DNA of 37,061 bases, from contig QOQC01000010.1 of assembly GCA_003331365.1 (NCBI GenBank), forward strand, positions 1 through 37,061, written 5' to 3'. This document shows positions 3,612 to 16,125 of this stretch, piece by piece. The notes below the pieces were generated by a model that saw only the letters and a program-made list of their open reading frames with translations, did not search any database and had not been told where the DNA came from. Position 1 is the first letter of the stretch, and every line of letters starts with the position of its first letter. The stretch comes from Flavobacteriales bacterium (GTDB taxonomy: Bacteria > Bacteroidota > Bacteroidia > Flavobacteriales_D > Crocinitomicaceae). The position numbers and the translations under genes are program-made.

Positions 3612-4679
3612 ATGAGTCATAATATAAAACCGGGAGTAGCTACGGGTTCAGAAGTTCAAGAAATATTTCGCTATGCGAAAGAAAAGAACTTTGCTTTGCC
3701 TGCTGTGAACGTCTCTTCAACGAGCACAGTGAACGCGGTAATGGAAACTGCTGCGAAGCTAAATGCACCAGTAATTATACAATTTTCAATAGGAGGCTCT
3801 CAGTTTTTCGCTGGAAAATCATTAGACAATTCTAACCACCAAGCGGCCATTTTAGGAGCTTCCTCAGGGGCTCGTCACGTGCACCGTTTGGCTGAGGCTT
3901 ATGGAGCCACTGTTATTCTTCATACTGACCATTGTCATAAGGCAAAATTACCTTGGATTGATGGTCTTATGGATGAAGGGGAAAAGTATTTCGGTTATTA
4001 TGGAGTTCCTTTGTACAGCTCTCACATGATTGATTTATCAGAGGAACCGATTAATGAAAATATTGAATTGTGTAAGGTATATCTCGAACGCATGAGTAAA
4101 ATGGGAATGACCCTGGAAATTGAATTGGGCATAACTGGTGGAGAAGAGGATGGCGTTGATAATACCGATATAGATTCTTCAAAGCTTTATACACAACCAG
4201 AGGAGGTTTCATATGCCTATGAAGAATTAATGAAAATATCGCCAAACTTTACAATTGCTGCTGCATTCGGAAATGTTCATGGTGTATATAAACCAGGCAA
4301 TGTCAAGTTGACTCCAAAAATCCTTAAAAATTCTCAAGAATATATTCGTGATAAATTTCAAACGGAATACAATCCGATAGACTTTGTATTTCATGGAGGC
4401 TCAGGATCCTCCCTTGAAGAAATTCGTGAGGCGATTAGTTATGGAGTGATTAAAATGAATATTGATACTGATTTACAATATGCTTTCACTGAGGGAGCAA
4501 GAGATTATATACTTAATAAGCAAGAATACCTCAAGAGTCAAATAGGTAATCCAGAAGGAGAAGATTTGCCCAACAAAAAATACTACGACCCACGAAAGTG
4601 GTTACGTGAAGGGGAAAATACATTCGTTCATAGGTTAGAGAAATGTTTTTCGGATTTAAATAATCTTCAAACCTTATAA
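3612..4679 (+). CDS. fbaA: Class II fructose-bisphosphate aldolase
   Basis: It catalyses the reversible zinc-dependent cleavage of fructose-1,6-bisphosphate into glyceraldehyde-3-phosphate and dihydroxyacetone phosphate in glycolysis and gluconeogenesis. With the ATG at 3612 the protein has 355 residues (E. coli FbaA 359) and is of the class IIA type. Asp106 and His107 in LHTDHC are the catalytic acid and a metal ligand. The NVHG (His223) and FHGGSGSS (His261) motifs supply the other zinc histidines and the phosphate-binding loop. The frame is open back to a TTG at 3588, but that TTG is inside a promoter element and MSHNIKPG is the usual beginning of this family. accD follows after 30 nt, so the two are probably cotranscribed and share the hairpin at 5579. 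Confidence 0.96.
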   Translation: MSHNIKPGVATGSEVQEIFRYAKEKNFALPAVNVSSTSTVNAVMETAAKLNAPVIIQFSIGGSQFFAGKSLDNSNHQAAILGASSGARHVHRLAEAYGATVILHTDHCHKAKLPWIDGLMDEGEKYFGYYGVPLYSSHMIDLSEEPINENIELCKVYLERMSKMGMTLEIELGITGGEEDGVDNTDIDSSKLYTQPEEVSYAYEELMKISPNFTIAAAFGNVHGVYKPGNVKLTPKILKNSQEYIRDKFQTEYNPIDFVFHGGSGSSLEEIREAISYGVIKMNIDTDLQYAFTEGARDYILNKQEYLKSQIGNPEGEDLPNKKYYDPRKWLREGENTFVHRLEKCFSDLNNLQTL

Positions 4680-4709
4680 ATCTTTATTAATTTTAAGCAA
4701 AGAAATAAA

Positions 4710-5555
4710 ATGAGTTGGTTCAAAAGAAATAAAGAAGGAATAACCACTACCACAAGTGAGAAAAAAGAAGTTCCTGAAGGTTTATGGTCAAAGTGCACCA
4801 ATTGTAAAACGATTTTTACAAAAGGCGATTTGGAAAAATTGAACTATGTATGTGACCGTTGCTCACATCACGAGCGTATTGGTTCTGAGGAATATTTTTC
4901 TATGATTTTTGATGGTGGAAAATATACCGAACTGAATGCAAAGGTAAAGCCTGGTGACCCATTGTCATTTGAGGACACTAAAAAATATACGGATAGGGTT
5001 AAGACAACACAGCAGAATACAGGATTATCAGATGCTGTTAGGACCGCCAAGGGAAAACTCAATAAAAAAGATATTGTCGTGGCTGCAATGGATTTTAAAT
5101 TCATAGGTGGTTCAATGGGTTCTGTTATGGGGGAAAAAATTGCGAGAGCCATTGATGAAGCTTTAAAGTTAAACTGCCCATTTATGATTATCTCGAAATC
5201 AGGAGGAGCAAGGATGATGGAGGCAGGCTTTTCATTAATGCAGATGGCTAAGATATCTGGTAAGTTGGGTCAGCTTTCTGATGCCAAATTGCCTTATATT
5301 TCATACTTAACTGATCCGACAACTGGAGGTGTTACTGCCTCTTTTGCTATGCTTGGGGATGTAAATATAGCTGAGCCCGGTGCATTAATTGCTTTTGCAG
5401 GTCCAAGAGTCGTTAAAGAAACTATTGGAAGGGATCTTCCAGAAGGATTTCAAACCTCGGAGTTTTTATTAGAGCATGGTTTTCTTGATTTTATCGTTGA
5501 CCGAACGGTAATTAGGGATAAACTGACTCTTGTCATTGATTTGTTCACAAAGTAA
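4710..5555 (+). CDS. accD: Acetyl-CoA carboxylase carboxyltransferase subunit beta
   Basis: AccD forms, with AccA, the carboxyltransferase that moves CO2 from carboxybiotin to acetyl-CoA, giving malonyl-CoA for fatty-acid synthesis. The 281-residue protein carries the N-terminal zinc ribbon (Cys29, Cys32, Cys48, Cys51), then the crotonase-like carboxyltransferase core with GGSMGSVMG (133-141) and SGGARM (164-169), the acyl-CoA oxyanion-hole region. Length is close to E. coli AccD (304). It sits 30 nt downstream of fbaA, linking a glycolytic enzyme with the first committed step of fatty-acid synthesis in one likely transcript. accA is not in the window. Confidence 0.97.
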   Translation: MSWFKRNKEGITTTTSEKKEVPEGLWSKCTNCKTIFTKGDLEKLNYVCDRCSHHERIGSEEYFSMIFDGGKYTELNAKVKPGDPLSFEDTKKYTDRVKTTQQNTGLSDAVRTAKGKLNKKDIVVAAMDFKFIGGSMGSVMGEKIARAIDEALKLNCPFMIISKSGGARMMEAGFSLMQMAKISGKLGQLSDAKLPYISYLTDPTTGGVTASFAMLGDVNIAEPGALIAFAGPRVVKETIGRDLPEGFQTSEFLLEHGFLDFIVDRTVIRDKLTLVIDLFTK

Positions 5556-5578
5556 ATTAGATCAATAATTTGGGTTAT

Positions 5579-5607
5579 TGAAACGAGTTTATTTTTCGTT
5601 TCATTTT
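5579..5607 (+). terminator. Probable terminator of fbaA-accD
   Basis: TGAAACGA (5579-5586) and TCGTTTCA (5596-5603) form a perfect 8-bp stem with a 9-nt loop, followed by TTTT. The stem is only moderately GC-rich and the T run short, so termination strength is uncertain, but it lies 24 nt after the accD stop. Confidence 0.55.
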
Positions 5608-5610
5608 ACG

Positions 5611-5618
5611 TATTTTTG
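5611..5618 (+). promoter_or_regulatory. -7 promoter element of the PNGase F-like gene
   Basis: TATTTTTG matches TAnnTTTG exactly, 12 nt before the ATG at 5631, implying a leader of only a few nucleotides. It starts just after the hairpin ending the previous transcript. No TTG at the proper spacing upstream. Confidence 0.45.
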
Positions 5619-5630
5619 AAAAAAAATACT

Positions 5631-8600
5631 ATGCTCAGAACTGCCTTAATTTTCTTGCTATTGATTTGTTGCTTAATGTCAAATGAAACATTAAAAGCAC
5701 AAGACACCACTTGGGTACAAACTTTTACCTTTGATTCTATAAGCACAAGACGTGCTAATTTTGAATTCCCCAGCTCTTTAAATGAAAAACGTTTTGAAAA
5801 AGTACTCATGTACTACAAATTAAAATGCAGTCCTTTAACTCCATGGGATCAATTCAATTGCGGAGAGTGGGATTACCTAACCTACACGCGTGTTTTTGAT
5901 CATACGGGCGAATATGATTCAGTTCAGGTAGATAGTGTAAGATATTTACACAATTATAGCTCACTGTCGCCTTTTGAATATGAGCCATGGGGGTACGATT
6001 ATCATAATAGTGCTATTGTAACTGAACATGAAAGACTGAATCTTAACAATCCCATACAATTCAATTTAGGACAAGTATCTTCTTCGAGTTCTTTGTATCC
6101 TTTTGATATGAATTATCAAGGAGGAAAATATCAAATGATCATAAATGCCTCCGAATTGGAGATGTCCGGTATGTCTCCTGGAGAAATCAAGTCCTTATGG
6201 TTGAATGTCGCCAATTTAACAAATGGAGGGGAACTCATGCATCCAAGGATATCATTAAAGTCTACTCAAGATACAGATTTAAATCAATTTCATACAAGTG
6301 GATTTACAACGGTGTATGACTTGAGTAGAGGAAATAACGTTTCATCAGTTTATGGGGAGCTTGAATTAGGGCCAAATGAATTTGTATTTAATGAGGCATT
6401 TACTTGGAATGGTTCAGACAATATTATTGTTGAAATTACATTTGATCATTCTTACCCTACAACAAATCTAATTGAGTTTGAAACAGAGCTTAGCAATGTA
6501 GGTCAGGCACTCAATTATTCTTCTAAGAATGGAAGTATGAAATTTAACGGCTCGAATCATGCTCTTTTCGAGCTTTCGGATATAGATATGGGAGATGAAT
6601 TGACCATTTCAATGTGGGTGAAGGGCAATGGCAATACAGGAGTAAACACGTCTATTCTCGAAGGTTATGATACATTGAATCAAAGGGTCATCAATATTCA
6701 CATGCCATGGAGCAATAATCGCATTTACTGGGATTGTGGTGCGGGCTCAAGTTATGATCGTATTGATAAGGACATGAGTAATGATGGTATTGACAATGAA
6801 TGGCATCATTGGGCATTTGTGAAAAAGCAAAGCACGGGGGAGATGATGATTTATAAGGATGGTATTTTGTGGCATAGTGGATTGGATAAAAACCGAACCA
6901 TAGGTGAGCTCCATAGACTAGTTTTAGGAGCAAACAGGAATTTAGGTAATCATTGGAAAGGAAATATCGATCATTTTCGAGTCTTTAATGCGGCCCTTGA
7001 TGAACCAACCATAAGTAATTGGATTTTTAGGAAAATAGATGATTCACACCCGAATTGGAATAATTTAATGGTTGCCTATGATTTTGATAATTTCAGCTAT
7101 GCAAGAGATGCATCACCTAATAATTACTTGTTGATGCCTTCAGAATTGGGAATGATTGATTTTAGTGAAGGGTCAATACCTGGAATGGAAAGAGCGGCAA
7201 ACAGGCTTTTGGTGTCTTTTGGAAATGGGGATTATCAAGACGCTGTTAGTACTCAGATTGGTGTAAGTAAAAAGTTTTTGATTGAGCCAGAGGTTATTTT
7301 TGAATTTGAAACTGTCGATAGACATTTTGAAATTTCCAATGCATTTTTGGGAGCACCTGCAGGAGCAGAAATATCTTATGATGAACAAGGAACAATTATT
7401 ACTTCTACTCCATATTCAACCAGTGAACTATTGACAAATGAAACCATAACCTATTATCAGAAACCTTATGAAATCATATTTGATGTAGAAATCGCAAGAT
7501 ACATCACACCATATGGAATTGGATTTGACCTAGGTCCAAATGGATTTTCATGGATATATGATGTAACTGACTACCAAGACTATCTGAGAAATATTGTTGA
7601 TCTAGCAGCCCATAATACCCAAGAGCTATTGGATTTAAAATTTGCTTTTATAGAAGGTATTCCACCCAGAGACATTCACAAGAGAGAGCCTATTTGGTCG
7701 GATTTTAGGTCATATGGTTTCACGGCTATGGCAGAGGATAACGTTCTTCAAGAAAAGAAAGTTTATTTGTCAGATACCTCACAAGGATTTAAAATTAAAA
7801 CGAGGATGTCCGGACATGGTCAAGTAGGTAATTTTGCCTGTTGCGAGTGGGTTTCAAATGATCATAGTCTTAAGATTGATGGAGTTACTAGATTTGAATG
7901 GGATATTTTCGAAGAGGAAGATTGTGGTACTAATCCCCTTATTGGGCAGGGAGGAACATGGCCTTATGCAAGAGAGGGATGGTGCCCAGGAGATAAGGTT
8001 AAAGAATATGAATTTGAACTAACACCATTTGTCACTCCGGGAGATTCTGTTGCTATAGATTACGTCATTAATGATGTTCCTGCATTAGATCCTGGACAAG
8101 GTGGTGGAAATTATCGTGCAGCATATGATTTAATTTCCTATTCGGCACCTAACTTTGAAAATGATGCCTCAATTGTCGAGATATTGAACCCAAACAATTA
8201 TGAATACTATAGAAAATACAATCCTACTTGTTCAAATCCAAGAGTTATTTTAAGAAACACAGGTGCTGAGCCATTAACTTCATGTACTATTAAATGCTGG
8301 ATAACCTATGGTGATTTTATAGATTATCAATGGACAGGTAACTTAGGTTTTATGGAAGAGGAGATTGTTGAAATACCTGTGGTGGACGATTCATGGTGGA
8401 CAGATCTAGATCAAAACCAAACGTTTACGGCATATGTCCGTGACCTTAATGGGGCATGGGGTAATGATGATTATCAACAAAATAGCGTAAAAAAGTCAAA
8501 ATTTCAAGCACCAGAATCAGTTGACGGACCTTTTTTAATCTGGTTTACAACGAACAATAAAGCCTCTGAAAACGCATATAGATTAATGGATGCTTCTGGT

Positions 8601-9128
8601 ACTGTTTTATTTGAGCGAACGAACTTGCAAAACTCAACTCAATACAAGGACACCTTTGACCTTGAACCAGGCTGTTACTCCATTGTCCTTGATGATTATG
8701 ACGATGACGGGTTGTCATTTTGGTATTCTTCTCAGACAGAGGGTGAAACGGCAGGAGCCTTTAGAGTGAGAAAAGTAGGCGGTAATTATATGGAAATTTT
8801 CCCTGGTGATTTTGGAAGCTACCACAGGTATGATTTTTCTGTAGGTTTTACTTTAGGGGTTGACGAAATTCCAGAACATGGAGAGCTTTCTATTTTTCCA
8901 AATCCAGCTCTAAATGAATTGTCAGTGGACCTATCGGCTAAAGTTGATGGTAAAGCTGAGATACAAATGATGGACTTATCGGGTAGAATTTTATTGCAAG
9001 ATGAAATGAATGCTACGGCTACATTCGCAGAATATTTCGCAGATATAAGTTCCTTTAAAAAAGGAACATACGTCATACGAATTATTACAGCCAATGGGAT
9101 TTATACCCAAAAATTTGTAAAGAGTTAA
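5631..9128 (+). CDS. T9SS-exported PNGase F-family protein with an inserted LamG domain
   Basis: 1165 residues from ATG 5631; the in-frame TTG at 5616 lies in a promoter element. Residues 1-23 are a signal peptide ending LKA. Residues 28-110 resemble the start of the PNGase F N-terminal domain: CGEWDY (77-82) aligns with CDEWDR of the Elizabethkingia enzyme, so Asp81 matches catalytic Asp60. A laminin-G-like domain follows (about 290-465, with WHHWAFV). The N-domain seems to resume at about 615-680, where ARYITPYGIG and DVTDY match PNGase F. The C-terminal PNGase F domain spans about 720-840: CCEW (Glu739 equals Glu206) and GWCPG (783-787). The Glu118 equivalent is not clear; the region reads HNTQELL. 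A T9SS sorting domain (IFPNP, GTYVIRI) covers about 1085-1165. If active it would remove N-glycans from glycoproteins outside the cell; the fold assignment is firm, the activity is inferred. Confidence 0.82.
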   Translation: MLRTALIFLLLICCLMSNETLKAQDTTWVQTFTFDSISTRRANFEFPSSLNEKRFEKVLMYYKLKCSPLTPWDQFNCGEWDYLTYTRVFDHTGEYDSVQVDSVRYLHNYSSLSPFEYEPWGYDYHNSAIVTEHERLNLNNPIQFNLGQVSSSSSLYPFDMNYQGGKYQMIINASELEMSGMSPGEIKSLWLNVANLTNGGELMHPRISLKSTQDTDLNQFHTSGFTTVYDLSRGNNVSSVYGELELGPNEFVFNEAFTWNGSDNIIVEITFDHSYPTTNLIEFETELSNVGQALNYSSKNGSMKFNGSNHALFELSDIDMGDELTISMWVKGNGNTGVNTSILEGYDTLNQRVINIHMPWSNNRIYWDCGAGSSYDRIDKDMSNDGIDNEWHHWAFVKKQSTGEMMIYKDGILWHSGLDKNRTIGELHRLVLGANRNLGNHWKGNIDHFRVFNAALDEPTISNWIFRKIDDSHPNWNNLMVAYDFDNFSYARDASPNNYLLMPSELGMIDFSEGSIPGMERAANRLLVSFGNGDYQDAVSTQIGVSKKFLIEPEVIFEFETVDRHFEISNAFLGAPAGAEISYDEQGTIITSTPYSTSELLTNETITYYQKPYEIIFDVEIARYITPYGIGFDLGPNGFSWIYDVTDYQDYLRNIVDLAAHNTQELLDLKFAFIEGIPPRDIHKREPIWSDFRSYGFTAMAEDNVLQEKKVYLSDTSQGFKIKTRMSGHGQVGNFACCEWVSNDHSLKIDGVTRFEWDIFEEEDCGTNPLIGQGGTWPYAREGWCPGDKVKEYEFELTPFVTPGDSVAIDYVINDVPALDPGQGGGNYRAAYDLISYSAPNFENDASIVEILNPNNYEYYRKYNPTCSNPRVILRNTGAEPLTSCTIKCWITYGDFIDYQWTGNLGFMEEEIVEIPVVDDSWWTDLDQNQTFTAYVRDLNGAWGNDDYQQNSVKKSKFQAPESVDGPFLIWFTTNNKASENAYRLMDASGTVLFERTNLQNSTQYKDTFDLEPGCYSIVLDDYDDDGLSFWYSSQTEGETAGAFRVRKVGGNYMEIFPGDFGSYHRYDFSVGFTLGVDEIPEHGELSIFPNPALNELSVDLSAKVDGKAEIQMMDLSGRILLQDEMNATATFAEYFADISSFKKGTYVIRIITANGIYTQKFVKS

Positions 9129-13800: not shown

Positions 13801-16125
13801 ATGAAAACTATCTTATTCACAATATGCGTCCTCTTATCTTATTTTGGGTGTACACAAGCGGAATTGAATTTTGTATCAAACATCGATTATCAAGCTCTAC
13901 ATGATGCCAATTTGAATGATATTTGGGGATATGAAGATGAAGATGGTAACGAATATGCCATTGTAGGAACTACAAAAGGAACTTCCATAGTTGATGTCAC
14001 AGATCCCTTGAACCCTCAAGAAATATACTGGCTTGAAGGACTTCAAAGTGTATGGCGAGACCCAAAAGTTCATGGAGATTATGCTTATGTTACTACAGAG
14101 GCGGAAGAAGGGATGACCATAATCGACCTTTCACCCTTACCTGGAAGCACAGCATTGACGAGTACTGTTTTTATGGGAGATGGTGGAATGACCTGGGAAT
14201 CAGCACACAATTGTTTTGTCGATGAATTAGGATATTTATATGTTTTTGGTGCCAATTATGGAGAAGGCGGAGCTATTATTTACGACGTGAATACTGCACC
14301 GATGAATCCTGTTCAGGTAGGTATTTTCGATAACTGGTATGTTCATGATGGTTATGCTCGAAATGATACACTGTATCTTGCACATGTTTATGATGGTTTT
14401 CTGAGTTTGGTCGATGTAAGTAACAAATCCAATCCTATTTTACTTGGAACTAAAATTACATCAAATGCATTTACTCATAATATTTGGCCCTCAGATCAGG
14501 GAGACGTTGTTTACACGACAGATGAATTACCAGATTCTTACATTACCTCATACGACATTTCAGATCCCATAAATATTATAGAACTTGATCGTGTTCAAAG
14601 TTCTCCTGGAGCAAATGTGATACCACATAATACTTTTGTAATTAATGATTATTTAGTTACCAGCTATTACGTGGATGGAATTACCATTCACGATGCTACT
14701 TTCCCCTATAATCTAATTGAAGTGGCGGCCTATGATACTTATCCGGGTCAAACCCCAACATATGATGGTTCATGGGGTGTTTATCCCTATTTGAATTCCG
14801 GAATTATACTAGCGGCAGATATGACGGAAGGCTTATTTATCTTGAGTCCAACTTATGCAAAAGCCTCCTATTTAGAAGGAACAGTTACTGACCAGTCGAC
14901 ATCTTCACCTCTTCTTAATGTCTCCGTTCAAATAGAATCTAATGATCAGATTGAAAATACAAATTCAATTGGCTTTTATGCAACGGGTTCTGGAGTTCAA
15001 GGCACCTATAACGTAACCTATTCAAAGGTTGGATATTTTCCTCAAACCTTAAGTGTAAATCTTACCCAAGGAGATATTACCATCCAAGATGTACAATTGG
15101 TTCCTATTGAACAATTTGATGTCACCATAAATGTATTTGATGATTTTGGAAATCCTATATCCGATGCTCAAATTTTCCTAAGTCATCCTTTGATCAATTA
15201 TGAAGGTATAACTAATGGTGTAGGAGAAGAAAATTTTAGTCTATTTTATCAAGAAAATTATGAATTAATTGTAGGTAAGTGGGGCTACTACACCCAATGT
15301 TTAGAACAAGTAATTAATCCTTCAACTGATGTAATTAACATAAACCTGACGAATGGATATTATGATGACTTCACTTTTGATTTTGGATGGACAGTTTCAG
15401 GAAGTGCTGAAACGGGAGAATGGGAGAGAGGCATCCCGAATCCAACAACAAATACAGTCATGGGCTTTGATTCAGATTTTGATTGTGGTTCTCAGGCATA
15501 TGTTACCGGCAACAGGGATAATGTAGATCCAGATTATGATGATGTAGATAATGGCATCACTGTTTTGACATCGCCTCCTATGGATTTGACACAATATGCA
15601 AATCCTCTTTTTATTTTCGAATATGCATTCTTTTGTAATCACGGACCAAATAATATAGATGACACACTAAGTTTTATGATAAGTAATGGCACTGAGAATG
15701 AAATATTTGGGCAGATTATTCCTCCTCAAGGTAATCCGATGGAGTTCAATCAATATTCATATCCGATAGCGGAAAGTTCATTGACTATAACCAATTCAAT
15801 GACCTTTAAGATTTTTGTTTCTGACCTCGAGCCACACGTCAATATCACGGAGGCTGCATTTGATTATTTTAGGGTAGAAGAAGCATGGGGAATTGACGAA
15901 TCAACCATGAATACATTCAGTGTTTATCCGAATCCTGTAAGTGAGAGTGCAATTATTAAAGGAGCCAAATTGGGTTCAGATTTCAAGTTGATCTCTTCAA
16001 GTGGTAGAGTTTTGGTAAAAGGAGTTATTAAAAGTGAAAGTCATTCAATTGAGTTAGATGATTTATCTAATGGATTTTATTTTGTCTTCATTGATGGCGT
16101 GCAAAAGAAAATTATCAAACAATAA
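13801..16125 (+). CDS. T9SS-exported choice-of-anchor B family protein
   Basis: 774 residues. A signal peptide ends near Ala20. Residues about 25-350 contain LVIVD-like beta-propeller repeats (SIVDVTDPLNP, IIDLS, LVDVSNKSNP, SYDISDP) with conserved histidines (SAHNC, VHDGY, THNIWP, IPHNT), the hallmark of choice-of-anchor B proteins. Two carboxypeptidase-regulatory-like beta-sandwich domains follow (about 355-435 and 436-516). A domain at about 520-697 carries a DYDDVDNG acidic stretch that could bind calcium. A T9SS C-terminal sorting domain (VYPNPVSES, LSNGFYFV) ends the protein at about 700-774. It should be exported by Sec, then secreted or surface-attached by T9SS. The function of this family is not established; it may be adhesive or scaffold-like. 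It has its own promoter region shared with acs. Confidence 0.85.
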   Translation: MKTILFTICVLLSYFGCTQAELNFVSNIDYQALHDANLNDIWGYEDEDGNEYAIVGTTKGTSIVDVTDPLNPQEIYWLEGLQSVWRDPKVHGDYAYVTTEAEEGMTIIDLSPLPGSTALTSTVFMGDGGMTWESAHNCFVDELGYLYVFGANYGEGGAIIYDVNTAPMNPVQVGIFDNWYVHDGYARNDTLYLAHVYDGFLSLVDVSNKSNPILLGTKITSNAFTHNIWPSDQGDVVYTTDELPDSYITSYDISDPINIIELDRVQSSPGANVIPHNTFVINDYLVTSYYVDGITIHDATFPYNLIEVAAYDTYPGQTPTYDGSWGVYPYLNSGIILAADMTEGLFILSPTYAKASYLEGTVTDQSTSSPLLNVSVQIESNDQIENTNSIGFYATGSGVQGTYNVTYSKVGYFPQTLSVNLTQGDITIQDVQLVPIEQFDVTINVFDDFGNPISDAQIFLSHPLINYEGITNGVGEENFSLFYQENYELIVGKWGYYTQCLEQVINPSTDVININLTNGYYDDFTFDFGWTVSGSAETGEWERGIPNPTTNTVMGFDSDFDCGSQAYVTGNRDNVDPDYDDVDNGITVLTSPPMDLTQYANPLFIFEYAFFCNHGPNNIDDTLSFMISNGTENEIFGQIIPPQGNPMEFNQYSYPIAESSLTITNSMTFKIFVSDLEPHVNITEAAFDYFRVEEAWGIDESTMNTFSVYPNPVSESAIIKGAKLGSDFKLISSSGRVLVKGVIKSESHSIELDDLSNGFYFVFIDGVQKKIIKQ

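Follow-up and report, generated by a model that had tools for sequence, protein, structure and literature searches.

A putative type IX-secreted PNGase of a Crocinitomicaceae bacterium with a large LamG-containing insert in its N-domain

Background

PNGase F is a standard laboratory enzyme. Its catalysis relies on Asp60, aided by Glu206 and Glu118, while Trp120 serves as sugar platform. We describe a relative of this enzyme encoded in a 37,061-nucleotide stretch of DNA (the window) from a Flavobacteriales bacterium of the family Crocinitomicaceae (assembly GCA_003331365.1, contig QOQC01000010.1, positions 1 to 37,061 of the forward strand). The gene lies at 5631..9128 on the + strand, as do all the features described below, and encodes a protein of 1165 amino acids (a TTG start 15 bases upstream is likewise open). 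Its PNGase N-domain is interrupted by an insert of about 510 residues. With moderate confidence, we read it as a surface N-glycan amidase that is delivered by the type IX secretion system (T9SS) and carries a lectin-like arm; its catalysis, its substrate and the position and binding role of the arm are predicted.

Other members of the superfamily have been described. According to PMC9522356, type II PNGases carry Gly at position 118 and are active. The type is recognized by Gly118, a stand-in Glu and a core α1,3-fucose pocket; the corresponding hairpin of the window protein is shortened. The superfamily site, as set out in a 2025 study (PMC12381499), combines an aromatic-Asp-positive/aromatic motif with a His and a Glu, PNGase F being exceptional with its Trp. 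Accessory modules are described there before or after the catalytic module. In the family reported here, about 510 residues are instead accommodated in one loop, in two nested layers.

Results and discussion

A PNGase F-like core interrupted in its N-domain

The first-pass annotation, made from the sequence alone, had placed the protein in the PNGase F family and proposed its secretion by T9SS. Both assignments are supported. The Pfam profile N-glycanase_C matches residues 707-821 (4.7e-10; 39.9 bits for a cut-off of 25), and a phmmer search of PDB sequences (E up to 1) returns three PNGase F sequences and no others (span 619-812, 3e-10). The C-terminal T9SS type A sorting domain (residues 1088-1164; 8892..9122) is recognized by Por_Secre_tail (PF18962, residues 1088-1163, 3.7e-13) and by the NCBIfam profile TIGR04183 (58.4 bits for a cut-off of 23), and SprA is encoded in the same genome (G000). 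The PNGase motifs listed in that annotation were all found where it had put them: C77-G-E-W-D81-Y82, R623...T626-P-Y628, D644-V-T-D647-Y648, H661-N-T-Q-E-L666, C737-C-E739-W740 and G783-W-C-P-G787. CxxWD and ITPY lie 548 residues apart in the window protein versus 26 in L103, L109 and L301. These three are short PNGase F-like proteins (360-380 amino acids) with WD and CAEW motifs, and their genomes (G076, G097 and G270) also hold the full-insert form.

The Pfam profile N-glycanase_N gives no match in the window protein at E up to 1. It is also absent or below cut-off in five tested relatives, including the short L103, which indicates that this profile is too narrow to judge the window protein. 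The idea that the insert makes the profile fail is ruled out, since insert-free relatives are missed too.

A structure model was built from an alignment of 70 sequences chosen by homology and length, not by motif (identities to the window protein down to 27%). The full-length model has a mean local confidence score (pLDDT) of 85.9 and a global one (pTM) of 0.49. Structural comparison (VIA) superposes it on PNGase F (1pgs) with Z 25.0, a root-mean-square deviation of 3.2 and 276/311 residues aligned, over model residues 24-841. Because residues 612-841 number only 230, the first half must belong to the same fold. The proposal that the two parts of the N-domain form one PNGase F-like domain was thus borne out on the predicted model. 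Further matches are Ngly2 (9lwg, Z 22.9), PNGF-II (Z 21.2) and the plant-type 7zgn (Z 21.1). In the model, both N-domain halves and the C-domain form a single PNGase-like double jelly roll (two eight-stranded jelly rolls side by side).

A probable signal peptide (residues 1-24; 5631..5702), judged by eye from sequence and model, consists of a hydrophobic helix (2-16) followed by KAQ-D. The first part of the N-domain (residues 25-92; 5703..5906), where the alignment to 1pgs begins at model residue 24, contains the W80-D81-Y82 motif (5868-5876), whose D81 corresponds to Asp60 of PNGase F. The second part (residues 613-690; 7467..7700), supported by phmmer, alignment and VIA, contains ITPY and DVTDY, and is followed by the C-domain (PF09113; residues 700-841; 7728..8153). 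The break occurs about 13 residues downstream of the catalytic Asp: in the model, strand 83-91 begins right after Asp81 and the insert comes next. Given the antiparallel topology of the jelly roll, the insert loop would lie on the face of the core away from the active-site loops.

Three modules in one loop, nested at the family level

The insert had been described in the annotation as a LamG domain at about residues 290-465 splitting the N-domain. The split and the LamG domain are confirmed (Laminin_G_3, PF13385, residues 307-461, 2.7e-15), but by its fold this domain is wider (about 295-519; residues 296-519 correspond to 6516..7187), and it is not alone. Insertion of LamG only is ruled out because the insert holds three modules, namely domain X (about 110 residues), module Y and LamG. 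The LamG fold is closest to 4dqa (Z 22.6 with the full model and 22.9 with the insert alone), followed by PAPP-A and PTX3/pentraxins (Z about 20-22). The domain, pentraxin-like in fold, may bind carbohydrate. Folded on its own, the insert reaches a pLDDT of 91.7 and a pTM of 0.86, versus a pTM of 0.49 for the whole protein. It is therefore predicted as a single firm unit whose placement relative to the core is less certain. The search with the insert alone mainly covers model residues 214-432; fold searches were dominated by PNGase and LamG entries and so bear on these two folds and not on domain X, module Y or the two C-terminal modules described below.

Module Y (about residues 139-295; 6045..6515) is a beta module according to its predicted strands. 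Stretches resembling it, found as A2 matches at about positions 40-210, turn up in other open frames with lengths of 1001-3054 amino acids, suggesting a recurrent Bacteroidota module. At G169:C8:469614-472733, three of them occur within one 2026-residue frame; single ones are found in other long frames.

The architecture is not restricted to the window. Sixty-six further open reading frames (ORFs) longer than 1100 amino acids match the window protein (P0001) over almost its full length, and the stretch equivalent to its residues 86-622 measures 522-538 amino acids in 68/69 aligned relatives, the remaining one ending at a contig end. The insert is thus neither a chance event nor an assembly error. 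Insert classes were defined with hidden Markov models (HMMs) cut out of the family alignment and run on the fetched ORFs, 157 of which carry the PNGase part. The spacing from the Asp60 motif to ITPY falls into classes of 24-35 (insert-free), 49-57 (small insert), 135-136 (domain X only) and about 533-556 residues (full insert).

The domain-X-only class reveals how the full insert is organized. An insert-only HMM of 106 columns, built from mid-insert sequence of 13 domain-X-only rows out of 15 (L093 was dropped as a false motif match), recognizes 26/91 full inserts (independent E-value, i-E, <0.01). It matches the left edge in 18, the right edge in 25, both edges in 17 and the middle in none. 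In the rows listed, left-edge matches extend to about position 51 of the profile and right-edge matches cover about 27 to 105, with some 390 residues, comprising module Y and LamG, in between. Neither the column-reversed profile nor shuffled targets gave any match. Profile-profile comparison (hhalign) agrees: the left edge aligns with columns 1-33 (probability 92.8) and the right edge with columns 36-100 (probability 96.4), while the probability never exceeds 1.5 for the LamG columns, the module Y columns or the reversed profile. At the family level, module Y and LamG are therefore nested inside domain X, and domain X inside the PNGase loop. The two pieces of domain X correspond to approximately residues 94-128 (5910..6014; columns 1-33) and 540-603 (7248..7439; columns 36-100) of the window protein.

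Three observations weigh against extending this organization to the window protein itself. Its own insert is not recognized by the insert-only HMM (right edge i-E 1.4, left edge nothing), only 1/44 same-genus inserts is among the 26 matches, and same-genus rows alone give weak, though in-register, hhalign probabilities (7.2 and 35.4). In the window protein alone, domain X is too diverged to be recognized, and the nesting proposed there rests on the end-to-end alignment with relatives.

Downstream of the core, two beta modules precede the sorting domain. The first (residues 840-960; 8148..8510), whose family HMM matches inserted and insert-free members alike, is called Ig, a name used purely as a label. 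The second (residues 962-1075; 8514..8855) is defined by a family HMM, gives a sub-threshold match to Pfam GBD_IRG7_N and is labelled GBD.

A conserved active site with a modified hairpin

Asp81 and Glu739, which the annotation had listed as kept, are indeed so. In the 70-sequence alignment D81 is present in 69/69 rows with a residue (one gap), as is the entire W80-D81-Y82 motif, and H729, E739, R781 and W784 (Trp191, Glu206, Arg248 and Trp251 of PNGase F) are each found in 70/70. A wider census covered 149 rows (132 from the family and 17 from the outgroup), in which E206, R248 and W251 are each conserved in 148/149 with one gap. The 149/149 obtained there for D60 is circular because rows were selected by a motif containing that residue, which is not the case for the 70-sequence counts. 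Five proteins whose Asp was missed by the census motif (L222-L225 and L230) nevertheless carry the aromatic-Asp, GHG...EF and RxxWCP motifs. Arg61 of PNGase F is replaced by Tyr in 132/132 family rows, and Trp191 by His in 131/132 (one gap) and in 14/17 outgroup rows. Both features of the superfamily site described in PMC12381499 are thus present in the window protein: W80-D81-Y82, and H729 with E739 on the second jelly roll.

The situation is different at position 118. Across the 132 family rows this column contains one Glu (L240), one Asp (L261) and 100 gaps, including all 94 full-insert rows. In the window protein it is a gap in the census alignment and a gap or L658 in another alignment, not the Glu or Asp of type I. 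The suspected loss of Glu118 is therefore real. It had also been taken to leave room for a binding protein derived from an enzyme, and this part did not stand: Glu118 is missing from nearly the whole family, insert-free members included, and from active type II enzymes, and so provides no argument for inactivity. A PNGase that lacks Glu118 is not necessarily inactive. A pseudoenzyme, that is, a glycan-binding surface protein retaining the PNGase fold merely as a scaffold for LamG, would agree with the absence of both Glu118 and Trp120, with the large binding-type modules and with adjoining genes unrelated to glycan use. However, Asp60, Glu206, Arg248, Trp251 and the His are invariant down to 27% identity, and the core persists where the binding module has apparently been lost (L279, L290, L234, L235, L236 and L256), the opposite of what a scaffold would predict. 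We regard this explanation as improbable.

The hairpin that carries Glu118 and Trp120 in PNGase F (residues 661-668; 7611..7634) is about 5 residues shorter in the full-insert clade, where Q664, E665 and D668 are invariant (70/70). A regular-expression search detects the QE motif in 90/94 full-insert rows and in all 6 members of that clade whose insert is trimmed or missing, but in 0/32 other family rows and 0/17 outgroup rows. E665 is a candidate for the stand-in Glu. Column 120, the sugar platform, is Gly (49) or His (45) across the 94 full-insert rows, whereas it is Tyr or Trp in 16/20 insert-free and 13/15 domain-X-only rows. This speaks against the reading as an N-glycan amidase. By analogy with PNGaseL, an active enzyme that takes its platform aromatic from a different loop (PMC12381499), another loop would have to supply the platform.

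The main rival explanation stems from these changes. The protein could be an amidase applying the same chemistry to stubs (GlcNAc-Asn, short glycans) or to non-eukaryotic glycoproteins, the platform being replaced by the Gln-Glu pair. The invariant hairpin residues, the restriction of the QE motif to one clade and the contrast in column 120 all point that way, as does the occurrence of PF09113 above cut-off in 53/61 same-genus genomes (own genome included), which evokes a more core-like role than a niche polysaccharide locus. However, the alignment of the short hairpin is uncertain, the example of PNGaseL shows that activity is compatible with an aromatic drawn from elsewhere, and the GH92 and GH20 enzymes of the same genome fit ordinary N-glycan use. 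A changed substrate seems to us unlikely, though it deserves consideration. Similarly tentative is a broader version, in which an ancient surface amidase of Bacteroidota, distinct from standard N-glycan PNGases, bears the nested arm as a detachable cartridge. The clade would have lost the platform for the second GlcNAc, gained an invariant Gln-Glu-x-x-Asp hairpin and come to cleave another kind of glycan-asparagine (or other glycan-amide) link, and the LamG arm would select the target. The altered active site would then be a mark of the whole clade, including members that later lost the arm.

Distribution and evolutionary history

PF09113 was detected in 82/100 relatives (81 above cut-off), in 106/197 genomes drawn from the class and in 25/148 drawn from the phylum. 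The full form occurs outside the class in 12 ORFs from 11 genomes. A scan of named genomes gave at least 590 stretches, 583 of which encode a relative among the matches listed, and 80 loci were kept. One of these, L176, comes from the cultured Fluviicola chungangensis MAH-3 and shows 49% identity in its best segment. The family is common in the genus of the window and extends to one or more further classes of the phylum; it is an old, widespread architecture and not a one-off. Two irregular loci were encountered. In genome G099 a full-insert gene (L095) is split into two overlapping frames (3870-6026 and 5977-7335) by a frameshift or an assembly error. In a same-genus genome where no ordinary copy was found, a 4031-residue frame (G005:C4:150688-150915) gives a weak N-glycanase_C match below cut-off (E 7.2e-4).

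Trees and census left out 9 of the 157 PNGase-bearing ORFs: L048, L051, L232 and the second half of L095, which have no first half, and the five proteins missed by the census motif. The 112-row tree includes 7 same-genus rows plus the window protein, part of which were used in the 62-row trees. With five insert-free members as the root of the 62-row tree, all 57 remaining rows group in one clade (100/100). Nested in it is a 47-row clade (100/100) of 41 full rows plus two each of the domain-X-only, small and insert-free kinds. The trimmed L234, L235, L236 and L256 (the last with domain X only) sit inside the full-insert clade, and the insert-free L279 and L290 are placed among full forms (99/98 and 100/98), with a spacing of 25 versus 26 in PNGase F-like proteins. 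Forcing all full-insert rows into one clade is rejected by the approximately unbiased test (p 1e-59). A second tree puts rows from outside the class in the same clade, although it wrongly contains L329, a protein of outgroup type with a very long branch.

The full form is thus not monophyletic, and a single gain with later trimming, complete in two genomes, is the simplest reading; gain followed by loss would be the direction of change. Alternatively, the full insert may have entered this loop repeatedly or been transferred between lineages. Unordered parsimony counts cannot tell gain from loss, and a second gain would be one way to interpret five full rows that stand next to two domain-X-only and two small ones. 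Moreover, LamG and PNGase were joined separately at least once: in another PNGase clade (L032, L034, L280, L292 and L297) the family LamG HMM detects a LamG-type domain before the PNGase part and not inside it, so that the two domains have been associated in two different ways. Against repeated gain stand the shared module order, the common breakpoint in domain X and the near-constant stretch length in 68 relatives. We consider it a poor candidate compared with one gain and subsequent trimming.

Genomic context and proposed role

The neighbourhood of the gene gave no functional hint. Relatives of fbaA, accD and the gene for an LVIVD protein were found near 23, 24 and 27 of the 47 same-genus loci, respectively. 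Outside the genus, 33 same-order loci gave 5 gene matches, and no neighbour gene was matched over 3 same-family and 107 same-class loci, many loci being cut by contig ends. The LVIVD protein (window 13801-16125) is a second T9SS-tailed protein, with LVIVD repeats and a carboxypeptidase-regulatory domain.

At the genome scale, PF09113 is present in 106/191 SprA-bearing genomes of the class draw versus 0/6 SprA-less ones, and GH92 in 70/106 PF09113-positive versus 31/91 negative genomes. A comparison of GH92 with the full-length form was discarded because the hand-made list held G207 (frame of 946 amino acids).

Several of these context data argue against an N-glycan amidase. The neighbours are housekeeping genes (fbaA, accD, fructosamine kinase and acs) with no glycan-use locus. 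The GH92 link is modest: within-family shuffles reach it in 190/5000 cases, indicating that much of the association reflects shared ancestry, and its p value is 0.044 by family, 0.076 in the 100 nearest relatives and 0.31 within the genus. Nevertheless, the conserved site, the T9SS tail and the presence of GH92, GH20 and SprA in the genome itself lead us to prefer an N-glycan amidase that is delivered by T9SS and bears a lectin-like arm.

Such a protein would be exported, passed across the outer membrane by T9SS and then held at the cell surface or released from it. Its double-jelly-roll core would act as a PNGase F-type amidase in which Asp81, aided by His729 and Glu739, cuts the Asn-GlcNAc bond of N-glycoproteins. 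The firm arm of about 510 residues would emerge from the loop at the distal end of the strand beginning at the catalytic Asp. Its probable role is to bind glycans or surfaces and deliver the core to its substrate, taking no part in forming the active site. This arm probably arose in a single assembly early in the history of the family, and trimming or loss has followed on more than one occasion. If the enzyme works, it would give aquatic Bacteroidota a further, widespread means of opening N-glycoproteins. Since insert-free, domain-X-only and full forms all exist in nature, together with two genomes from which the full insert has apparently disappeared again, natural proteins allow a direct test of what the insert does.

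Comparison with known systems

The window protein shares with type I PNGase F of Elizabethkingia (1PGS, 1PNF) the double jelly roll and the residues Asp60, Glu206, Trp59, Tyr85, Arg248 and Trp251. The type I enzyme differs in having no insert between the Asp60 strand and ITPY, a solved chain of about 314 amino acids, and Glu118, Trp120, Arg61 and Trp191. PNGase F-II and plant-type enzymes (4R4X, 4R4Z and 7ZGN) resemble it in fold (Z about 21) and, according to PMC9522356, are active with Glu118 not kept. However, their bowl-like accessory domain is N-terminal and not inserted, and they possess a stand-in Glu (E418/E419) of which E665 may be the counterpart. Zebrafish Ngly2 (9LWG) is close in fold and, as reported in PMC12753239, has an Asp421/Glu555 pair and histidines near the site, but it carries N-terminal thioredoxin-like and PA domains and is a lysosomal, acid enzyme.

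PNGaseDo and PNGaseL are, following PMC12381499, T9SS-tailed enzymes of the superfamily with C-terminal beta modules and a site open at C3 of the core GlcNAc. From their description, the three beta modules of PNGaseDo may match the insert-free members reported here. In that description their modules precede or follow the catalytic domain, and the main text of that article contains no words beginning with "insert". No description of a nested insertion in a catalytic jelly roll, of graded insert states or of a Gln-Glu hairpin clade turned up in searches of the open-licence PMC literature. The family and its secretion route belong to kinds already known.

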